Source: Marivirga sericea
Lineage (GTDB): Bacteria; Bacteroidota; Bacteroidia; Cytophagales; Cyclobacteriaceae
Assembly (NCBI RefSeq): GCF_900177665.1
Contig: NZ_FXAW01000012.1
Span: forward strand, 2,501 to 42,361
Reading direction: 5' to 3'
Length of the DNA: 39,861 nucleotides
Positions 16,103 to 22,222 of the stretch are shown here, piece after piece. The position numbers and the translations under genes are program-made. Under the pieces are notes generated by a model. It was given only the letters and a program-made list of their open reading frames with translations, was not told the DNA's origin and did no database searches. How positions within the stretch are numbered: the first letter of the stretch is position 1; each line of letters begins with the position of its first letter.

Positions 16103-16762
16103 TCATAAGTGTATCCCGCATTCCACCTTAGCATTGCCTGACCATCGCCCTTCTCGGCCGCTTCCTTTTGTAGTACAGTGGGTACATCCAATTGAGCTAT
16201 AGCCCTTTGCTACTAATTTATGGCTGGGCAGTTCGTGTATGAAAAAATAGGCATGCACCTCCTCCGGAGTCATATCCAATAGCGGATAGACTTTTAAAAT
16301 ATCCGGTTTTTCATCGAAAAAAGTCAGTTGCTTACGGTTCTCATTCTGATATTTGAACAAACCCGAAAGCCATATTTTATGCGATTCGCGCAATGCCGCA
16401 AGGGGCTCCACCTTATTAATAAAGCAGCATAAATCCTGATTATGCTGATAGGTATAGTTTTCTTCCGTAAAACGATGTTTATTTTTCGGTGCACCTATGG
16501 TTTTTACATTTAAGCCCAGCTGTGCATGCAGTTTATCTTTATAGGCTTTGGTTTCCTCAAAATGATAGCCTGTATCCAAAAAATAAATGGGATGCCTGGG
16601 GCTGATTTTATGAATTAAATGTAAAAGCAAGGCCGATGAACTCCCAAAAGAGGATGTCATCAGAATCTCATCCTCAGCAAAATGATCGAAAATCCAGCGC
16701 ACCCTTCCTTCTATGCTATACTGCTGAAAATCAGCTTGAGCAAATCCCTTGATACTGTCCAT
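16103..16762 (-). CDS. cysH: CysH-type phosphoadenylyl/adenylyl-sulfate reductase
   Basis: The enzyme reduces activated sulfate (APS or PAPS) to sulfite. The 219-residue product has the PP-loop-like opening LMTSSFGSSSALLLHLI and IYFLDTGYHFEET. The iron-sulfur pattern CC (in DLCCFINKVEPL) and CxxC (in GCTHCTTKG) is present, and the catalytic Cys lies in the C-terminal ECGIHL. The CC...CxxC pattern marks the [4Fe-4S] type, which usually prefers APS. The start at 16762 is chosen because it lies just beyond the TGA of the preceding gene; an in-frame ATG at 16807 would add 15 residues overlapping that gene. It is the last gene of the sulfur operon. No cysD/cysN-like sulfate-activating genes are in the window. 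Confidence 0.9.
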   Translation of the reverse strand: MDSIKGFAQADFQQYSIEGRVRWIFDHFAEDEILMTSSFGSSSALLLHLIHKISPRHPIYFLDTGYHFEETKAYKDKLHAQLGLNVKTIGAPKNKHRFTEENYTYQHNQDLCCFINKVEPLAALRESHKIWLSGLFKYQNENRKQLTFFDEKPDILKVYPLLDMTPEEVHAYFFIHELPSHKLVAKGYSSIGCTHCTTKGSGREGRWSGNAKVECGIHL

Positions 16763-16763
16763 A

Positions 16764-17366
16764 TCAATTTTCCTTTTTATGATGTACAAAAGAGGCAGTG
16801 ATTTCATTTAGCACCTCCATTTTCTTTTCAAAATCACCTTTTAAGCCTTTTCTTATGGTGGCCAGATTTCGCAGAATATCATCTGTATTATCGGGCAGCA
16901 CTTCCTCCAGTATTGCCCTTAGCCTTTTGGCAAATGTGGGCGATTTCCCATTGGTGGAAATCCCGATTTTCAGATTGCCTTTTTTGACCGTGCTGCCAAG
17001 GTAAAAATCGCAGAGTTCAGGCGTATCCGCTACATTCACCAAAATTCCTTTTGTCTTGGCATTCCGGTAAATTTGCTGGTTCACTTCGTAGAAATTGGTG
17101 GCGCCTATTACCAGATTAATAGCTGCTAAATCTGACTTTTCATAGCTTTTCTCCACCAATTCAATGGCTGGGTGAACCGCAGCAATTTCCCTGATCTCCT
17201 GCCTGATTTCGGGCGCCACTATTTTCACCCTAGCTTCGGGATCATTCTTCAAAAGTGCTCCCAGCTTTTCCCAGCCTACATATCCTCCACCCACTAACAG
17301 CGTTTGGATTTTATCCAGCTTTAGAAATACCGGGAACAAATGGTTTTCTTCAGATCTGTGTGACAT
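16764..17366 (-). CDS. Precorrin-2 dehydrogenase / sirohydrochlorin ferrochelatase (CysG N-terminal type)
   Basis: This 200-residue protein makes siroheme from precorrin-2 by NAD-dependent oxidation, and probably iron insertion. The NAD-binding motif is TLLVGGGYVGWEKLGALLKN (about 18-37), followed by VIGATNFYEVNQQIYRNAK and NVADTPELCDFYLGS, then KIGISTNGKSPTFAKRLRAILEE, all typical of the Met8/SirC/CysG(N) family. It overlaps the end of the upstream methyltransferase gene by 17 bp. It supplies the siroheme cofactor for the sulfite reductase encoded in the same operon. Confidence 0.9.
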   Translation of the reverse strand: MSHRSEENHLFPVFLKLDKIQTLLVGGGYVGWEKLGALLKNDPEARVKIVAPEIRQEIREIAAVHPAIELVEKSYEKSDLAAINLVIGATNFYEVNQQIYRNAKTKGILVNVADTPELCDFYLGSTVKKGNLKIGISTNGKSPTFAKRLRAILEEVLPDNTDDILRNLATIRKGLKGDFEKKMEVLNEITASFVHHKKEN

Positions 17367-18108
17367 GCTGTTTTATATTTTTGATGGTGGTAAAATCAAT
17401 TTGCTGTGCTAGCGACTCGCCTACTAAAATAATCCCGGGAGAAGCCACTTTTTGCTCCCTTATGGTGTGGGCTAATTGCCCTACTGTGGTCCGATACACT
17501 TTCGCATTAGCCAATGAGCCATTGGAAACAATCGCTGCTGGCAGATCGGCTTTGTCTTGCAATGCATAAGCTTCACTAATCGCTGCCGATTTTCTTAACC
17601 CCATGAGAAAAATAGCTGTAGCAGAAGTTTCTGCCACTTTAGCCACATCTCTTGATAATTCCCCGCTTTTGGTGGTAGCAGTTACCACCCAAAAACTTTC
17701 ATTGATGCCCCTGGTGGTTAAAGGCAGCCCGTACATTCCGGCTAAATTGATGCTGGAAATACCGGGCACCACCTGAGTCCTAATCCCGAAACTTTCCGCA
17801 TAATCAATCTCCTCTTTTCCTCTTGCGAAAATAAAGGGGTCTCCACCTTTCAAGCGAACCACATGCCCATGACTAAATACATTTTCAATAATCAATTCAT
17901 TGATTTCTTCCTGTTTGTAGCTGTGTTTGCCCGCTCGCTTGCCAACATAAATTTTTAATGCTTTTGAGGGCACATAATTTAATAATTCGGGATGCACCAG
18001 AGCATCATATAATACCACATCTGCTTGTGCCAATGTTTTGATACCTTTCACACTGATCAAATCCGGATCTCCCGGACCTGCTCCTACTAGACTTAATTTC
18101 TTTTCCAT
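17350..18108 (-). CDS. cobA: Uroporphyrinogen-III C-methyltransferase
   Basis: The enzyme methylates uroporphyrinogen III twice with SAM to give precorrin-2, the first step of siroheme synthesis. The 252-residue sequence shows the family motifs VGAGPGDPDLISVKG (7-21), VLYDALVHPELL, RLKGGDPFIFARGKEEI (about 84-100), VVPGISSINLAG and GLPLTTRGI. It starts 2 bp after the sulfite reductase stop and overlaps the precorrin-2 dehydrogenase gene, so the two siroheme genes are coupled and produced with their client enzyme. In enterobacteria both activities are fused in CysG; here they are separate. Confidence 0.93.
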   Translation of the reverse strand: MEKKLSLVGAGPGDPDLISVKGIKTLAQADVVLYDALVHPELLNYVPSKALKIYVGKRAGKHSYKQEEINELIIENVFSHGHVVRLKGGDPFIFARGKEEIDYAESFGIRTQVVPGISSINLAGMYGLPLTTRGINESFWVVTATTKSGELSRDVAKVAETSATAIFLMGLRKSAAISEAYALQDKADLPAAIVSNGSLANAKVYRTTVGQLAHTIREQKVASPGIILVGESLAQQIDFTTIKNIKQHVTQI

Positions 18109-18110
18109 GA

Positions 18111-20237
18111 TTATGCTTTATAAAAATGATTAATGACTTTCTTTTCCGTTGATTCAATTCCTCTCAAACTCTTGGCTTCCTCCAAAAATTGATGGGCCGA
18201 TTTCAGATAATGCTGTACAAATTCCTCTGTCGGTTTTTGTGATTTGATCTGATAGACCAAATCGGCAAAAGAGCTTTCCAAATTCACTTTTTCGGTCTCC
18301 ACAAAATGCACATCAAAATCCGCTATGATACCAGCTTGGGTATTACACTGCACATCTTCCGCCAGCAATAGCGCTTTAGCCGTGGTGACCAAAACATTAT
18401 AGCTGTTGTACAATGCATGTTCCAGCTCATTATCCTGAAAATGCTCATAGGCATTTACCAACTTTTCCTCTGCTTCTTTGAAAATGGTGCTGACCAAATC
18501 AAAGCTGGTTCCGGCACATTCTCCCAATCCTATTTCGGGTGTGAATTCCTGATCTCTGTTCCAGTCGATATAATCCTCATCCCTGATGTGGGTCAGATCA
18601 CCCAAATGCTTCAGTAAATCATAGAAGTACTTTTTCTCTTTTGTCCTGAAATAATCCGGATAAAATGCCCCATTGGCATTGGCTTCATAATCATTTAGCA
18701 AAACCCTGAAAGCTTCCGGGATTCTTTTAGTCGGCAGTTTGATGACCTTTTCTGCCGCTAATCCGGTTCCATCAGATCGCAATCCACCACCCAAAACCAC
18801 TTGCATGGCGGGCACTACTTTTCCTTTGTTTTTTATGGAACTTCCATGAAGGCCAATACCGGCAATCATGTGTTGACCACAAGCATTCATACAGCCGCTG
18901 ATTTTAGTATTGATCAGTTTGCTATGCGCCAGATGCGAAAATTCCTGCAATAGGAATTTCTCCAAAATATCCGCCAAAGCGGTACTATTGGTTACCCCCA
19001 GATTACAAGTATCCGTTCCGGGGCAAGCGGTGATATCGGCAAAGCTTTCCGCTCCGGACTGATTTAATCCCAGCTCACCCAACTTTTCAAATAAAACGGG
19101 CAAGGCATTTTTCCGAACAAAGCGAATGACCAAGCCTTGATATACACTGATGACCAAATCACCGCCTACAAATTCGTCTATTAGATCGGCTAGCTTTTTG
19201 GCCTTTACATGATCAATATCGCCCAAAGGTGCTTTTACCAAAACCCCATAATAGCCTTGCTGCTTTTGCTCAAAAACATTAGAATCCAACCATTGCTGGT
19301 AGGCCCATTGATCTTGCACATCATAGCTGGAATAGATTTTTTGAGGCTTTGCCTCTTCCACTTTCGAAGGTTTTAAATCTAATGGCTTAGGATGTAAAAC
19401 TTTCTCTTCTTCCCCTACCAATCTCCTGAATTCATCTAATCCAATTTTCTTGATAAGGAATTTCAAGCGGGCTTTCATTCTTTTCTCGCGCTCGCCAAAA
19501 CGGTCAAAAACTCTTAAAGCTGCTTCAAGGAAAGTGATCAATCTATTTTCGGGAAGAAATTCGAAGAACTCCTGGGCCAGAATGGTTTGGGCACCTAAGC
19601 CACCTCCAACTAAAACACGAAATCCTTTTTCTTCTTCTTTTCCATTTTTTCTCAAGACCGGGATAAATCCGAAATCGTGAATGAAAGCAAAAGCCGTATC
19701 CTTCTCACTGGAGGAAAAAGCAATCTTAATTTTTCTCCCCATTTCCTGGCAAATCGGATTTCTCAAGAAAAATCGGAATACCGCATCCAAATAAGGTGTG
19801 ACATCAAAAGGCTCATGCGGATCAATGCCTGCCTTATGACTAGCCGTTATATTCCGAACCGTATTTCCACAAGCTTCTCTTGCGGTTAAACCCGAAGCTT
19901 CTAGTGCGGTCCAAATGGCTGGGGAATCATCCAGTTTCACATAATGAAATTGGATGTTTTGCCGGGTAGTTAAATGTAAATTGCCCGTTGCATATTGATC
20001 CGATAGATCAGCCACTACTCGCAATTGTTCGGTGGTAATTCTCCCAGCAGGGATTTTCAATCGGAACATCTGCACGCCCTGTTGCCTTTGTCCGTAAACC
20101 CCGCGCGTTAATCGGTAGGCCTTAAATTTCTCTTCATCTATCTGTCCAGATCGGAAGAGTTCAATTTTGTTTTGAAGCTCAGCTATGTCTTTTTTTGCTA
20201 GCTTCGGTACTGCTAAATTTTCAGATAATGTTGTCAT
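18111..20237 (-). CDS. Siroheme-dependent sulfite (nitrite) reductase with C-terminal HEPN-like domain
   Basis: The protein (708 residues from the chosen ATG) reduces sulfite to sulfide in assimilation. Two ferredoxin-like plus siroheme half-modules are visible: the first with GVYGQRQQGVQMFRLKIPAG and HLTTRQNIQFHYV, the second with KISGCMNACGQH. The [4Fe-4S]-siroheme cysteines are in TACPGTDTCNLG and SGCMNACGQH. After about residue 560 a helical extension of about 140 residues resembles a HEPN domain. The start 20237 (MTTLSENLAV) is preferred; an earlier in-frame ATG at 20291 lies inside the attenuator hairpin. The neighbours (siroheme genes, CysH, a sulfhydrylase) point to sulfite rather than nitrite as substrate, with ferredoxin as likely donor. 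Confidence 0.88.
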   Translation of the reverse strand: MTTLSENLAVPKLAKKDIAELQNKIELFRSGQIDEEKFKAYRLTRGVYGQRQQGVQMFRLKIPAGRITTEQLRVVADLSDQYATGNLHLTTRQNIQFHYVKLDDSPAIWTALEASGLTAREACGNTVRNITASHKAGIDPHEPFDVTPYLDAVFRFFLRNPICQEMGRKIKIAFSSSEKDTAFAFIHDFGFIPVLRKNGKEEEKGFRVLVGGGLGAQTILAQEFFEFLPENRLITFLEAALRVFDRFGEREKRMKARLKFLIKKIGLDEFRRLVGEEEKVLHPKPLDLKPSKVEEAKPQKIYSSYDVQDQWAYQQWLDSNVFEQKQQGYYGVLVKAPLGDIDHVKAKKLADLIDEFVGGDLVISVYQGLVIRFVRKNALPVLFEKLGELGLNQSGAESFADITACPGTDTCNLGVTNSTALADILEKFLLQEFSHLAHSKLINTKISGCMNACGQHMIAGIGLHGSSIKNKGKVVPAMQVVLGGGLRSDGTGLAAEKVIKLPTKRIPEAFRVLLNDYEANANGAFYPDYFRTKEKKYFYDLLKHLGDLTHIRDEDYIDWNRDQEFTPEIGLGECAGTSFDLVSTIFKEAEEKLVNAYEHFQDNELEHALYNSYNVLVTTAKALLLAEDVQCNTQAGIIADFDVHFVETEKVNLESSFADLVYQIKSQKPTEEFVQHYLKSAHQFLEEAKSLRGIESTEKKVINHFYKA

Positions 20238-20254
20238 AGTTTTAAATTTTGAGT

Positions 20255-20297
20255 AAAAAAAATGCCTCTTGCGGAAGTTGGGATTCTGCAAGAGGCA
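20255..20297 (-). terminator. Intra-operon attenuator terminator before the sulfite reductase gene
   Basis: On the minus strand TGCCTCTTGC (20288-20297) pairs perfectly with GCAAGAGGCA (20263-20272), with an inner GAA/TTC stem, and is followed by eight T residues (20255-20262). This is a textbook intrinsic terminator, yet it lies inside the operon, between metZ and the sulfite reductase gene, 18 nt before the latter's start. It directly follows a cysteine-containing 22-codon ORF (20320-20388), so attenuation is the obvious reading. Confidence 0.85.
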
Positions 20298-20319
20298 CTA
20301 TAGTTTGGGTATAGCGATA

Positions 20320-20388
20320 TCATGCAGCATGCGGAGGAGCCTTGCAACACATCATAAAACAGATCTTATTTTCTATCCTTAATTCCAT
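20320..20388 (-). CDS. Putative 22-residue cysteine/methionine leader peptide
   Basis: An ATG overlaps the metZ stop codon (TAATG), so a ribosome ending metZ can reinitiate here. The 22 codons include the cluster ICFMMCCK (Cys10, Met12, Met13, Cys14, Cys15) and end HAA-stop. A strong terminator hairpin begins 22 nt after the stop codon, followed by the sulfite reductase gene. This is the classical layout of ribosome-mediated attenuation, with Cys (and perhaps Met) supply as the signal. The bases TGCAAGGC over the last Cys codon can pair with the 5' arm of the terminator (GCCTCTTGCA) with a 2-nt bulge. Translation of the peptide is not proven. Confidence 0.65.
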   Translation of the reverse strand: MELRIENKICFMMCCKAPPHAA

Positions 20389-21560
20389 TATTTTGAAGCT
20401 TTTAGTGCTTGTTCAATATCTTCAATGATATCATTTACATTTTCCAAACCCACCGACAAACGGATGAGCCCATCGGCAATTCCTACCCTATGCCTTTCCT
20501 CCTCGCTTAGTTTGCTGTGCGTAGTCGTGGCAGGATGCGTGACAATTGATCGGGTATCTCCAAGGTTGGACGTGACCGACAGCATTTGCAGATTATTGAC
20601 AAATTTGCTACATCGTTCCCCTCCGCCTTTCACAATGAAAGTGAGAATACCGCCTCCTTTTAGCATCTGTTTTTTTGCTAAATCAAACTGAGGGTGCGAT
20701 TTCAAGAAGGGGTATTTAACGCTTTCTAATTCGGTATGCCCTTCCAAGTATTCCGCAATTTTCAAAGCACTTTCGCAATGCCTGTCCATGCGCACCGCTA
20801 GAGTTTCCAAACTTTTGGAAAGTACCCAGGCATTAAAAGGTGAAATAGCCGGCCCCGTATGGCGACTGAAAAAGCGTACATCCTTGATTAATTCTTTAGA
20901 GCCCAGGATCAAGCCACCCAATACTCTTCCTTGTCCATCAATAAATTTGGTGGCACTGTGTGAAACAATATGCGCACCCCATTTGGCTGGTTGTTGCAAA
21001 TAGGGAGTGGCAAAGCAATTGTCCACCACAAAAATCAAATTATGGGCTTCCGCCAATTTCCCCAGCCATTCCAAGTCAATAATCTCCAGTCCAGGATTGG
21101 AAGGCGTTTCCACAAAAATCATTTTGGTTTCAGGCTTAATCAGGCTTTCCCATTCATGCGTTCTGCTGATATCCGCATAAGTGTGAGAAATACCCCATTT
21201 TGGGAAAATCTGCGTCAGCAATTGGTGGGTAGAACCAAATAATGATCTAGCCGCCAAAATATGGTCCCCTTGTTGTAGCAATGCCGCCATACTTCCAAAC
21301 ATTGCCGCCATACCGGTAGCGGTTGCAAATCCGTCTTCCAAGCCTTCTAATCGAGTCATTTTATCTATCAATTCCGAACTATTGGGGTTGGAAAATCGGG
21401 AATAAATATTGCCTTCCTCTTCATCATTGAATAATGCTTTGGCTTGTTCGGCATTTTCAAAAGTGAAGGAAGATGTCAAATAAAGCGGTACGGCATGCTC
21501 TCTGTTGCCACTTTGGACAGCTTGGGTACGGATAGCCTGGGTTTCGAAATGTTGAGACAT
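20388..21560 (-). CDS. metZ: O-succinyl/O-acetylhomoserine sulfhydrylase (MetZ-type, PLP enzyme)
   Basis: This 390-residue enzyme of the Cys/Met-metabolism PLP family joins sulfide (or cysteine) to an activated homoserine on the way to methionine. The PLP lysine is Lys205 in SHSATKFIDGQGRVLGG, Asp180 in VVDNCFATPYLQQP faces the pyridine nitrogen, and YSRFSNPN and GMAAMFGSMAALL are family marks. The TSSFTFENAEQAKALF opening and GQGRVLGG point to MetZ rather than MetB, but the donor (succinyl or acetyl) cannot be read from sequence. It sits behind a SAM riboswitch and a Cys-rich leader ORF and opens the sulfur operon, taking sulfide from the sulfite reductase encoded downstream. Confidence 0.85.
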   Translation of the reverse strand: MSQHFETQAIRTQAVQSGNREHAVPLYLTSSFTFENAEQAKALFNDEEEGNIYSRFSNPNSSELIDKMTRLEGLEDGFATATGMAAMFGSMAALLQQGDHILAARSLFGSTHQLLTQIFPKWGISHTYADISRTHEWESLIKPETKMIFVETPSNPGLEIIDLEWLGKLAEAHNLIFVVDNCFATPYLQQPAKWGAHIVSHSATKFIDGQGRVLGGLILGSKELIKDVRFFSRHTGPAISPFNAWVLSKSLETLAVRMDRHCESALKIAEYLEGHTELESVKYPFLKSHPQFDLAKKQMLKGGGILTFIVKGGGERCSKFVNNLQMLSVTSNLGDTRSIVTHPATTTHSKLSEEERHRVGIADGLIRLSVGLENVNDIIEDIEQALKASK

Positions 21561-21705
21561 AAAAATATTGGTTATAGTTTCCCCTTGAAGGGATGTGAAA
21601 TTTGAAAAAACTAAGTTGGATAAGCTTTAAAGATGCGTGCAGAAACTGCCTAGGATTATGATCCCATACAAATTCAACTGATTACCTAAAAGCTAAAATT
21701 GGAAA
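21561..21705 (-). promoter_or_regulatory. Structured leader between the Cys-rich ORF and metZ
   Basis: These 145 nt hold several small stems on the minus strand (GGAT-CATA-ATCC, GCAG-TTT-CTGC, CCCT-TCAA-AGGG), the last close to the metZ start. There is a TTTTTT run without a clear stem in front. If the upstream ORF controls metZ, it may do so by translation or mRNA structure rather than by a simple terminator. Confidence 0.35.
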
Positions 21706-21837
21706 TCAACAACAGCAATTGCTACAACAGCAAATACTTATTAGATTTGTTAATTTAGAAATAGTCGTAAATTCCAAAGATTGATTTTGTGAATCAAGTT
21801 GGTAATTGCGCGAGATGTAATCTTTTTGTGTGTTCAT
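21706..21837 (-). CDS. Putative 43-residue leader peptide ending in CCCSNCCC
   Basis: The frame runs from ATG at 21837 to TGA at 21706. It opens MNTQKDYISRNYQLD, is polar through the middle, and ends SICCCSNCCC, so six of its last eight sense codons are cysteine, directly before the stop. The ATG is 11 nt downstream of the SAM aptamer's closing stem in an A-rich context like other starts in this window. A run of Cys codons before a sulfur operon is the design of cysteine-sensing leader ORFs known from mycobacteria and other actinobacteria. The Cys-codon DNA also contains the dyads TTGCT-GTTGT-AGCAA and AGCAATTGCT. Translation and function are inferred. Confidence 0.65.
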   Translation of the reverse strand: MNTQKDYISRNYQLDSQNQSLEFTTISKLTNLISICCCSNCCC

Positions 21838-21848
21838 TGTTTTACCGT

Positions 21849-21948
21849 TTTATATTTCCCTTCGTTGGGCAGGAATTGGCACCTTTCCAAATTGCTTGGG
21901 GGTTGCCAGAGGGTCAACGAGCCTGTTCTCTCACCTCATCTATATAAA
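21849..21948 (-). promoter_or_regulatory. SAM-I (S-box) riboswitch aptamer
   Basis: On the minus strand the segment shows the conserved S-box order: GATGAGGTGAGAGAACAGGC, GTTGACCCTCTGGCAACC, a variable arm, then AAGGTGCCAATTCCTGCC. The closing helix P1 is TTTATAT (21942-21948) with ATATAAA (21849-21855). This class binds S-adenosylmethionine and lowers expression of methionine and sulfur genes. No obvious terminator follows the aptamer; instead the ATG of the Cys-rich leader ORF comes 11 nt later, so SAM may act on translation of that ORF. Confidence 0.93.
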
Positions 21949-21972
21949 TCGGTCGAAACCGATATGATTTCT

Positions 21973-22005
21973 CAAATATAGAAACTTGATTTTGACTTAA
22001 CCAAA
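21973..22005 (-). promoter_or_regulatory. Promoter of the sulfur-assimilation operon
   Basis: On the minus strand TTTGG (22001-22005) precedes TATATTTG (21973-21980), an exact TAnnTTTG box, by about 20 bases. Transcription would begin near 21966, just upstream of a small hairpin (ATCGGT-TTCG-ACCGAT) and the SAM aptamer. Confidence 0.7.
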
Positions 22006-22222
22006 TTTGTAGTAAAATATTTTACGGAAGCGCTCCTTTTGTTTTTGTAAGTAGTTAAAAAACAGCCTCCTATCATGCTGATATGGGTGTAATTAAAGCA
22101 CGAACTGGGAAGCTCGCGCTAGCACCTAACTACAGTATTTAAAAGAAAAATATTAGATTAGCTTGATAATAAAATATATCAGCAAGGCTGATAGTATCCA
22201 AGATTAAAAAGCAGAACTCCAC
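22006..22222. other. Intergenic region before the acetyltransferase gene
   Basis: This separates the divergent sulfur operon and acetyltransferase gene. It contains a small hairpin, TATCAGC-AAG-GCTGATA (about 22178-22194), and a GC-richer segment near 22100-22125 (AAGCTCGCGCTAGCACC) that resembles REP-like debris. I see no gene. Confidence 0.35.

Follow-up and report, generated by a model that had tools for sequence, protein, structure and literature searches.

What lets transcription reach the distal genes of an operon when an intrinsic terminator stands between them and the promoter? Such a terminator lies between a metZ-like gene and a sulfite reductase (SiR)-like gene of Marivirga sericea, within the 39,861-nt stretch of contig NZ_FXAW01000012.1 that was analyzed here (the window). 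The initial annotation, made from the letters alone, proposed an attenuator with a Cys/Met leader peptide. On the evidence below, a cysteine-sensing, ribosome-mediated transcription attenuator inside the operon is the best explanation and a likely one, with no experiment as yet behind it.

Table 1. Features of the metZ-SiR locus (positions of the window)
Feature	Coordinates	Strand	Remarks
TAnnTTTG promoter-like element (TATATTTG)	21973..21980	minus	possible operon start
SAM riboswitch aptamer, Rfam RF00162	21847..21950	minus	cmscan 75.6 bits, E 3.9e-16
43-codon ORF ending ISICCCSNCCC, then stop	21706..21837	minus	start 9 nt past aptamer; candidate second Cys sensor
metZ-like O-succinylhomoserine sulfhydrylase	20388..21560	minus	Pfam Cys_Met_Meta_PP
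Leader ORF MELRIENKICFMMCCKAPPHAA	20320..20388	minus	22 codons; ATG 20388-20386, stop TGA 20322-20320
Predicted antiterminator hairpin	20286..20327	minus	from folds with the ribosome-covered bases masked; almost no variation among five Marivirga
Intrinsic terminator	20255..20298	minus	stem about 20298-20262, T8 20262-20255
SiR-like hemoprotein, 708 aa (regulated gene)	18111..20237	minus	Pfam NIR_SIR and NIR_SIR_ferr; ATG 20237-20235
Uroporphyrinogen-III C-methyltransferase (siroheme)	17350..18108	minus	
Siroheme synthase N-terminal type (precorrin-2 dehydrogenase)	16764..17366	minus	
Phosphoadenylyl-sulfate reductase CysH	16103..16807	minus	

The features of the locus are collected in Table 1. 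The top NCBIfam model for the metZ product was O-succinylhomoserine sulfhydrylase, whose score of 510.4 bits is below the cut-off of 522. No NCBIfam model exceeded its cut-off for the SiR protein, the best of those below it being the NirA family model; since cysH and metZ share the operon, we infer that the substrate is sulfite and not nitrite. The SiR protein queries (domain, family and homologue searches) began at 20243, two in-frame residues before the true start, and the closest named relatives were those of Marivirga sp. LH_M32 (92% identity) and M. aurantiaca (83%). An attenuator is expected to serve synthesis of the amino acid that it senses, and the genes behind the terminator (SiR-like, siroheme genes and cysH) meet this criterion. 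In the minus strand of 20240-22100, TAnnTTTG, which we take to be the Bacteroidota -7 motif (a promoter reading from sequence only, with no mapped transcription start), occurs at a single site, upstream of the SAM riboswitch. The site has an equivalently placed counterpart ahead of the riboswitch in L112 and L116 (such handles denote loci). The claim that the terminator is internal to an operon is thus supported by metZ standing before SiR, an order shared by the Marivirga that were examined and by other relatives, and by the lone promoter-like element, though L112 has two extra copies inside metZ.

The leader ORF begins on the metZ stop codon (TAA, 20390-20388), its ATG overlapping as TAATG, and has Cys at codons 10, 14 and 15 (20361-20359, 20349-20347 and 20346-20344). 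Its own stop is 82 nt from the SiR start, with the strong terminator in between. In these respects the initial annotation held, as it did for the 22-codon length and the eight T; it failed in two details. The stem, described as a perfect 10-bp helix, consists of 12 outer pairs, an A.C mismatch and three inner pairs (-19.8 kcal/mol), and the T run, by count, ends 17 nt before the SiR ATG and not 18 nt as stated. The region has a folding z-score of -2.34. A simple terminator scan listed the hairpin on the plus strand only, and its total of 19 carries no weight on its own, shuffles giving 14.7 +/- 3.4. Among 4227 Rfam families, none exceeded its gathering score at 20240-20400, the SAM riboswitch being the sole match in the window. 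Over the last eight leader codons, five Marivirga sequences vary in six columns, five synonymously and one not (D/H). This mostly synonymous pattern suggests translation; the conservation of the leader end is also explained by that RNA forming the antiterminator. At codon 20 (20329-20331, minus strand) the source genome is alone of the five in having His (CAT) for Asp. Searches of the source genome for TGYTGYTGY N0-6 TGYTGY returned eight places, leader-like only for the ORF before metZ, and the MMCCK pattern had one second place, without leader-like context.

To ask whether Cys leaders accompany SiR terminators in general, we assembled 109 SiR loci, 30 from 59 genomes including the source genome (31 with a match) and 79 from named genomes. 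A SiR start was located in 107 of these (105 distinct); L108 and L134, in which no start was found, were dropped. A terminator was called within 420 nt before SiR in 72 of the 107, and 60 of the 72 had a leader with at least three Cys. Relatives that keep the hairpin without the Cys codons, which had been named beforehand as a refutation, are therefore the exception, and three of the 12 (L086, L096 and L102) have a run of at least five Cys in a nearby ORF. Counting all terminator units before SiR, 84 of 108 had a leader with at least three Cys, while 5.6 were expected from dinucleotide shuffles. The remaining terminators in the same DNA of the 79 named loci, which have 516 terminators in 737,964 bases searched on both strands, served as controls: leaders with at least four Cys preceded 74 of 84 terminators before SiR and 4 of 432 others, and those with at least three preceded 76 of 84 and 12 of 432, respectively. 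Two of the four apparent controls with at least four Cys (L063 and L134) actually lie before SiR, uncredited by the script, and the other two (L069 and L118) are on the opposite strand. Both of two criteria for an attenuator, a short ORF in which the regulatory codons are over-represented and an intrinsic terminator before the gene, are met.

What is conserved in these leaders is the Cys codons and not the peptide sequence, as sequence and comparison show. Outside the genus the peptides look unalike, with Cys runs as long as nine residues substituting for one another, and the CC dipeptide occurred 413 times, against 38.4 in shuffles. Cys made up 22.5% of residues, followed by Asn (7.3%), and Met only 6.1%; Met as a second signal was thus not supported, and the proposed Cys/Met leader becomes a Cys leader. 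Between the leader stop and the terminator stem the gap was 16-58 nt (median 28) over 84 units. Within Marivirga, the stretch containing the antiterminator is present in five of ten genomes, the same five that have SiR (the source, G002, G004, G006 and G007). The other SiR-bearing members retain the leader together with the hairpin. Completeness is below 90% for two of the ten genomes, G001 (without the element) and G007 (with it). The leader ORF, the terminator, the conservation of Cys codons and the association with SiR are in our view shown by sequence and comparison, and attenuation of SiR by a cysteine leader, as first proposed, is supported by the comparative tests; dependence on cysteine itself is inferred.

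The element is not universal. No terminator was called before SiR in 35 of the 107 loci, some of which have Cys ORFs missed by start calls or thresholds (for example L092, L101, L110, L115, L119 and L121, all except L092 later recovered). Among the named loci a unit was present in 49 of 79, two or more in 28, and none in 30. No unit was found in eight of eight Roseivirga (L090 has almost no upstream DNA), in five of five Sinomicrobium, or in 10 of the 11 loci that bear the name Lewinella or Neolewinella (these include L108, for which no SiR start was located). Two Cys units in series before SiR occur mostly in records titled Saprospiraceae or Chitinophagales (L063, L064, L066-L068, L070-L072, L076, L080, L082, L084, L085, L087, L088, L094, L105, L107, L119, L123-L126, L128, L131-L133 and L140). 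CCCCCC matched in 216 of 395 genomes of the phylum, a count that was discarded as evidence: most of 30 loci examined lacked leader-like context, and several were TGT repeats or other gene frames.

An attenuator further requires that the terminator and an alternative hairpin exclude one another, with a stall at Cys freeing the alternative and a ribosome at the stop codon masking it. We folded the RNA as it would be before synthesis of the terminator's 3' arm and treated 13 nt, counted from the first base of the A-site codon, as covered by the ribosome; cover of about 12 nt downstream of the codon has been described (PMC4833913). With the ribosome stalled at Cys10, 14 or 15, the hairpin 20327-20286 (a slightly shorter variant for Cys10) was predicted to hold 9-10 nt of the terminator's 5' arm, paired with the leader end, its stop codon and the linker (-13.2 to -14.5 kcal/mol). 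When the ribosome was placed at the leader stop, this hairpin was lost (0 nt held, -0.9 kcal/mol). The four other Marivirga behaved alike, holding 10-14 nt when stalled and 0-4 at the stop; antiterminator energies across structures were about -13 to -19 kcal/mol, and the D-to-H change at codon 20 weakens the base of the predicted hairpin (-13.2, compared with -19.0 in L005). As predicted by folding only, this requirement is met.

Across relatives, L006 and L112, and likewise L007 and L116, have identical upstream DNA, leaving 82 of the 84 units for the pairing and folding tests. These held on average 11.6 arm nt with the ribosome at the first Cys, 9.5 at the last Cys and 2.2 at the stop, while shuffled sequences in the first state held 7.6 (Wilcoxon p 1e-14), and own terminator arms paired better than foreign ones (p 2e-8). 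The low value at the stop is partly automatic because less RNA is free in that state, and 15 of 82 units keep at least 6 arm nt there. Taken singly, the source sequence gave an antiterminator not beyond shuffles (p 0.25), and just 17 of 82 units reached p<=0.05. The five Marivirga sequences are 95% alike and vary too little for a covariation test. A candidate based on RNAduplex against the terminator arm alone, in which codons 14-17 pair with the arm in Marivirga, was rejected: the pairing had p 0.21-0.38, a ribosome at Cys14 or Cys15 would hide these codons, and folding of the whole stretch gave a better, local hairpin.

The mechanism that we propose is inferred as to ribosome stalling, restart from metZ, the response to cysteine and its sign. 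Ribosomes ending metZ would restart on the overlapping leader. When Cys-tRNA is plentiful, a ribosome reaching the leader stop would hide the antiterminator's 5' strand, the terminator would form, and the SiR, siroheme and PAPS-reductase genes would be off while metZ is still made. When Cys-tRNA is short, the ribosome would stall at Cys codon 10, 14 or 15, and the antiterminator (20327-20286) would take the 5' arm of the terminator before the 3' arm exists, allowing read-through into SiR. Restart is plausible by inference from the position of the leader start: relative to the metZ stop, the nearest leader ATG fell between -4 and +11 nt in 11 of 12 loci measured (L011 was at +64), and at -1 or 0 in the five Marivirga. 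From this set no metZ end was found in L012 and L019, and L101 gave no unit.

The same transcript appears to begin with another regulatory element. The aptamer upstream of metZ meets the criterion for membership of RF00162, exceeding its gathering score of 44.4 bits, and is followed by an ORF with a Cys run at its stop. In Rfam scans of the window and 37 further loci, the latter in batches, a SAM riboswitch was found in 2 of 14, in 9 of 15 and in 5 of 8 of them. In the 17 scanned loci with a SAM riboswitch before metZ, before a ferredoxin-like gene plus metZ, or before SiR, an ORF with an ATG 0-13 nt past the aptamer (mostly 8-9) and a Cys run at or adjoining its stop was present in 16 (or in 15 of 16 when L116 and L181, identical in sequence, are counted once); L184 has the riboswitch without such an ORF. 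With M. aurantiaca (L116) included, the second ORF keeps mainly its Cys-run end. Two wider SAM searches provided the best-scoring 60 loci, of which 58 were usable (L196 and L232, truncated, were left out), and nine had the Cys-run ORF, compared with 0.5 expected. All nine are among the 29 loci of Marivirga's order, start 8-10 nt past the aptamer and precede a sulfhydrylase-like gene (FETLQLHAGQ-like start by motif reading; L201 confirmed by family); none of the 29 SAM loci from the phylum draw had such an ORF. By motif reading of the same set, it accompanied 9 of 14 sulfhydrylase cases and none of nine metH cases, L199 and L210 being fragments that match methionine synthase models. In L010 and L127, SAM riboswitch, Cys-run ORF and attenuator follow one another directly before SiR.

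No intrinsic terminator was found after ORF 21837-21706 in the source locus, and that this ORF acts through Rho or translation is possible, no more than a guess. It is likewise possible that the transcript senses SAM and cysteine in turn. A bolder reading, which as a single joint claim we favor by only a narrow margin, is a serial two-metabolite decision in which the output of the SAM riboswitch is translation of the ORF that closes with the Cys run, acting as a SAM-gated sensor of cysteine for sulfhydrylase genes, followed by metZ and then by a metZ-coupled cysteine attenuator for sulfite reduction, with the stacked attenuators of relatives sharpening the response to Cys-tRNA.

Three other explanations were considered, each of which we regard as very unlikely. 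The first is a constitutive partial terminator that fixes the ratio of metZ to SiR, the small ORF being incidental. An intra-operon terminator would by itself lower SiR, and some relatives (9 to 12 of the 72 loci with a terminator) have no Cys leader. Against it stand the Cys leaders at 74 of 84 SiR terminators compared with 4 of 432 others, the mostly synonymous changes at the leader end and the presence of more than one unit at 28 of 79 loci. The second, no more probable, is that the Cys-rich nascent peptide senses a thiol-reactive signal (copper, zinc, sulfide or sulfite) and arrests the ribosome, with no part for Cys-tRNA. Cys runs with nearby Met could, by inference, bind soft metals, MM pairs are mildly over-represented in leaders (32, compared with 10.6), and the product of SiR is sulfide. 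However, the peptides differ widely except in Cys, run length and spacing vary as codon counting predicts, and the genes served are those of Cys and Met synthesis and, in one case of a Cys run at the stop, cysS. The third, that Rho or translational coupling regulates and not a hairpin switch, the leader keeping the RNA covered or feeding ribosomes to SiR, is plausible as to Rho at the Cys-run ORF behind the SAM riboswitch because no intrinsic terminator was found there, but at SiR it faces the 82 nt and strong terminator between leader stop and gene start and the stop-to-stem gap (16-58 nt, median 28, over 84 units).

As a cysteine attenuator, the element belongs for comparison with the trp, his and leu type of leader-peptide attenuators, a well-known class. 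Like them, it has a short ORF with runs of the sensed codon, a mutually exclusive terminator and antiterminator and a biosynthetic target; it differs in lying inside an operon after a complete gene, its start overlapping that gene's stop, in sensing Cys and in being often tandem in relatives. Untranslated RNA, folded in search of a protector hairpin that would give termination without translation, was predicted to favor the antiterminator in four of five Marivirga, unlike trp. The uORFC-8-2 motif before cysS of Rhodobacterales, for which attenuation has been proposed (PMC8632094), is alike in that its short ORF contains a tandem pair of Cys codons and is followed by an intrinsic terminator. 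It is an alpha-proteobacterial motif of cysS, whereas the present element belongs to Bacteroidota and a SiR-like gene, so we do not count the latter as a member; Bacteroidota are not mentioned in the main text of that paper. In mycobacteria, polycysteine ORFs precede sulfur genes of cys operons with no conserved terminator hairpin reported (PMC1262725), and they are reportedly leaderless (Canestrari 2020, by title). Their Cys run near the stop resembles ORF 21837-21706, for which no terminator was found either; leader 20388-20320 has an intrinsic terminator, unlike them, and is not a member of this class.

Bacteroid-trp RNA (RF01692) is a cis-regulatory RNA of Bacteroidetes listed for trp (PMC2864571). 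It is an attenuator; it concerns trp and not cysteine, and had no match in the window at its gathering score. The upstream aptamer is a member of the SAM riboswitch (S box) family, yet the next frame here is the Cys-run ORF and not a structural gene. The Mbox riboswitch of M. tuberculosis controls translation of a small upstream ORF, with Rho (PMC12810186), and a B12 riboswitch likewise controls a small ORF (PMC11260477); these are alike as riboswitches acting on small ORFs, which are not known to be runs of sensed codons. A Flavobacterium transcriptome reported leader-peptide attenuation before amino-acid operons, cysteine being unnamed in the relevant section of the main text (PMC9723704), and one of Bacteroides mentioned leader-peptide-like small ORFs in general (PMC7366714). 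The open-licence literature that we searched contained no Cys attenuator in Bacteroidota and no RNA switch for their sulfite reduction. Judged from that literature only, leader-peptide attenuation has probably not been described in such a setting, where the element lies within an operon, downstream of a SAM riboswitch that has a Cys-run ORF of its own, and is repeated in tandem in relatives.

A class of switch recognizable from DNA alone, by its Cys codons, predicts cysteine-responsive genes in many uncultured Bacteroidota. Its place inside the operon would allow the methionine and cysteine branches to run separately from one promoter, as had been suggested at the outset. If the reading of the upstream elements is true, SAM riboswitch and Cys-run ORF are two sulfur signals in series on one RNA, and tandem attenuators offer a direct test of whether stacking sharpens the response. 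Similar elements were also seen before other genes. In one genus of another family, MMCCK leaders with terminators, paired by eye, precede O-acetylhomoserine sulfhydrylase with a small ORF between (L041, confirmed by family, and L045, by matching start), and in L046 such leaders with terminators precede a drug/metabolite exporter-like gene (below cut-off). In L159 the ORF MFFLSHTCCCCCCC, with its Cys run at the stop, lies shortly before cysS, with no terminator found. Long Cys runs at an ORF stop occur in L173 and L177 upstream of a gene without assigned function (no NCBIfam hit for L173), and at G127:C1:1257240-1257488 an MMCCK match is followed, at a distance of about 118 nt and in the same strand, by a SAM riboswitch.
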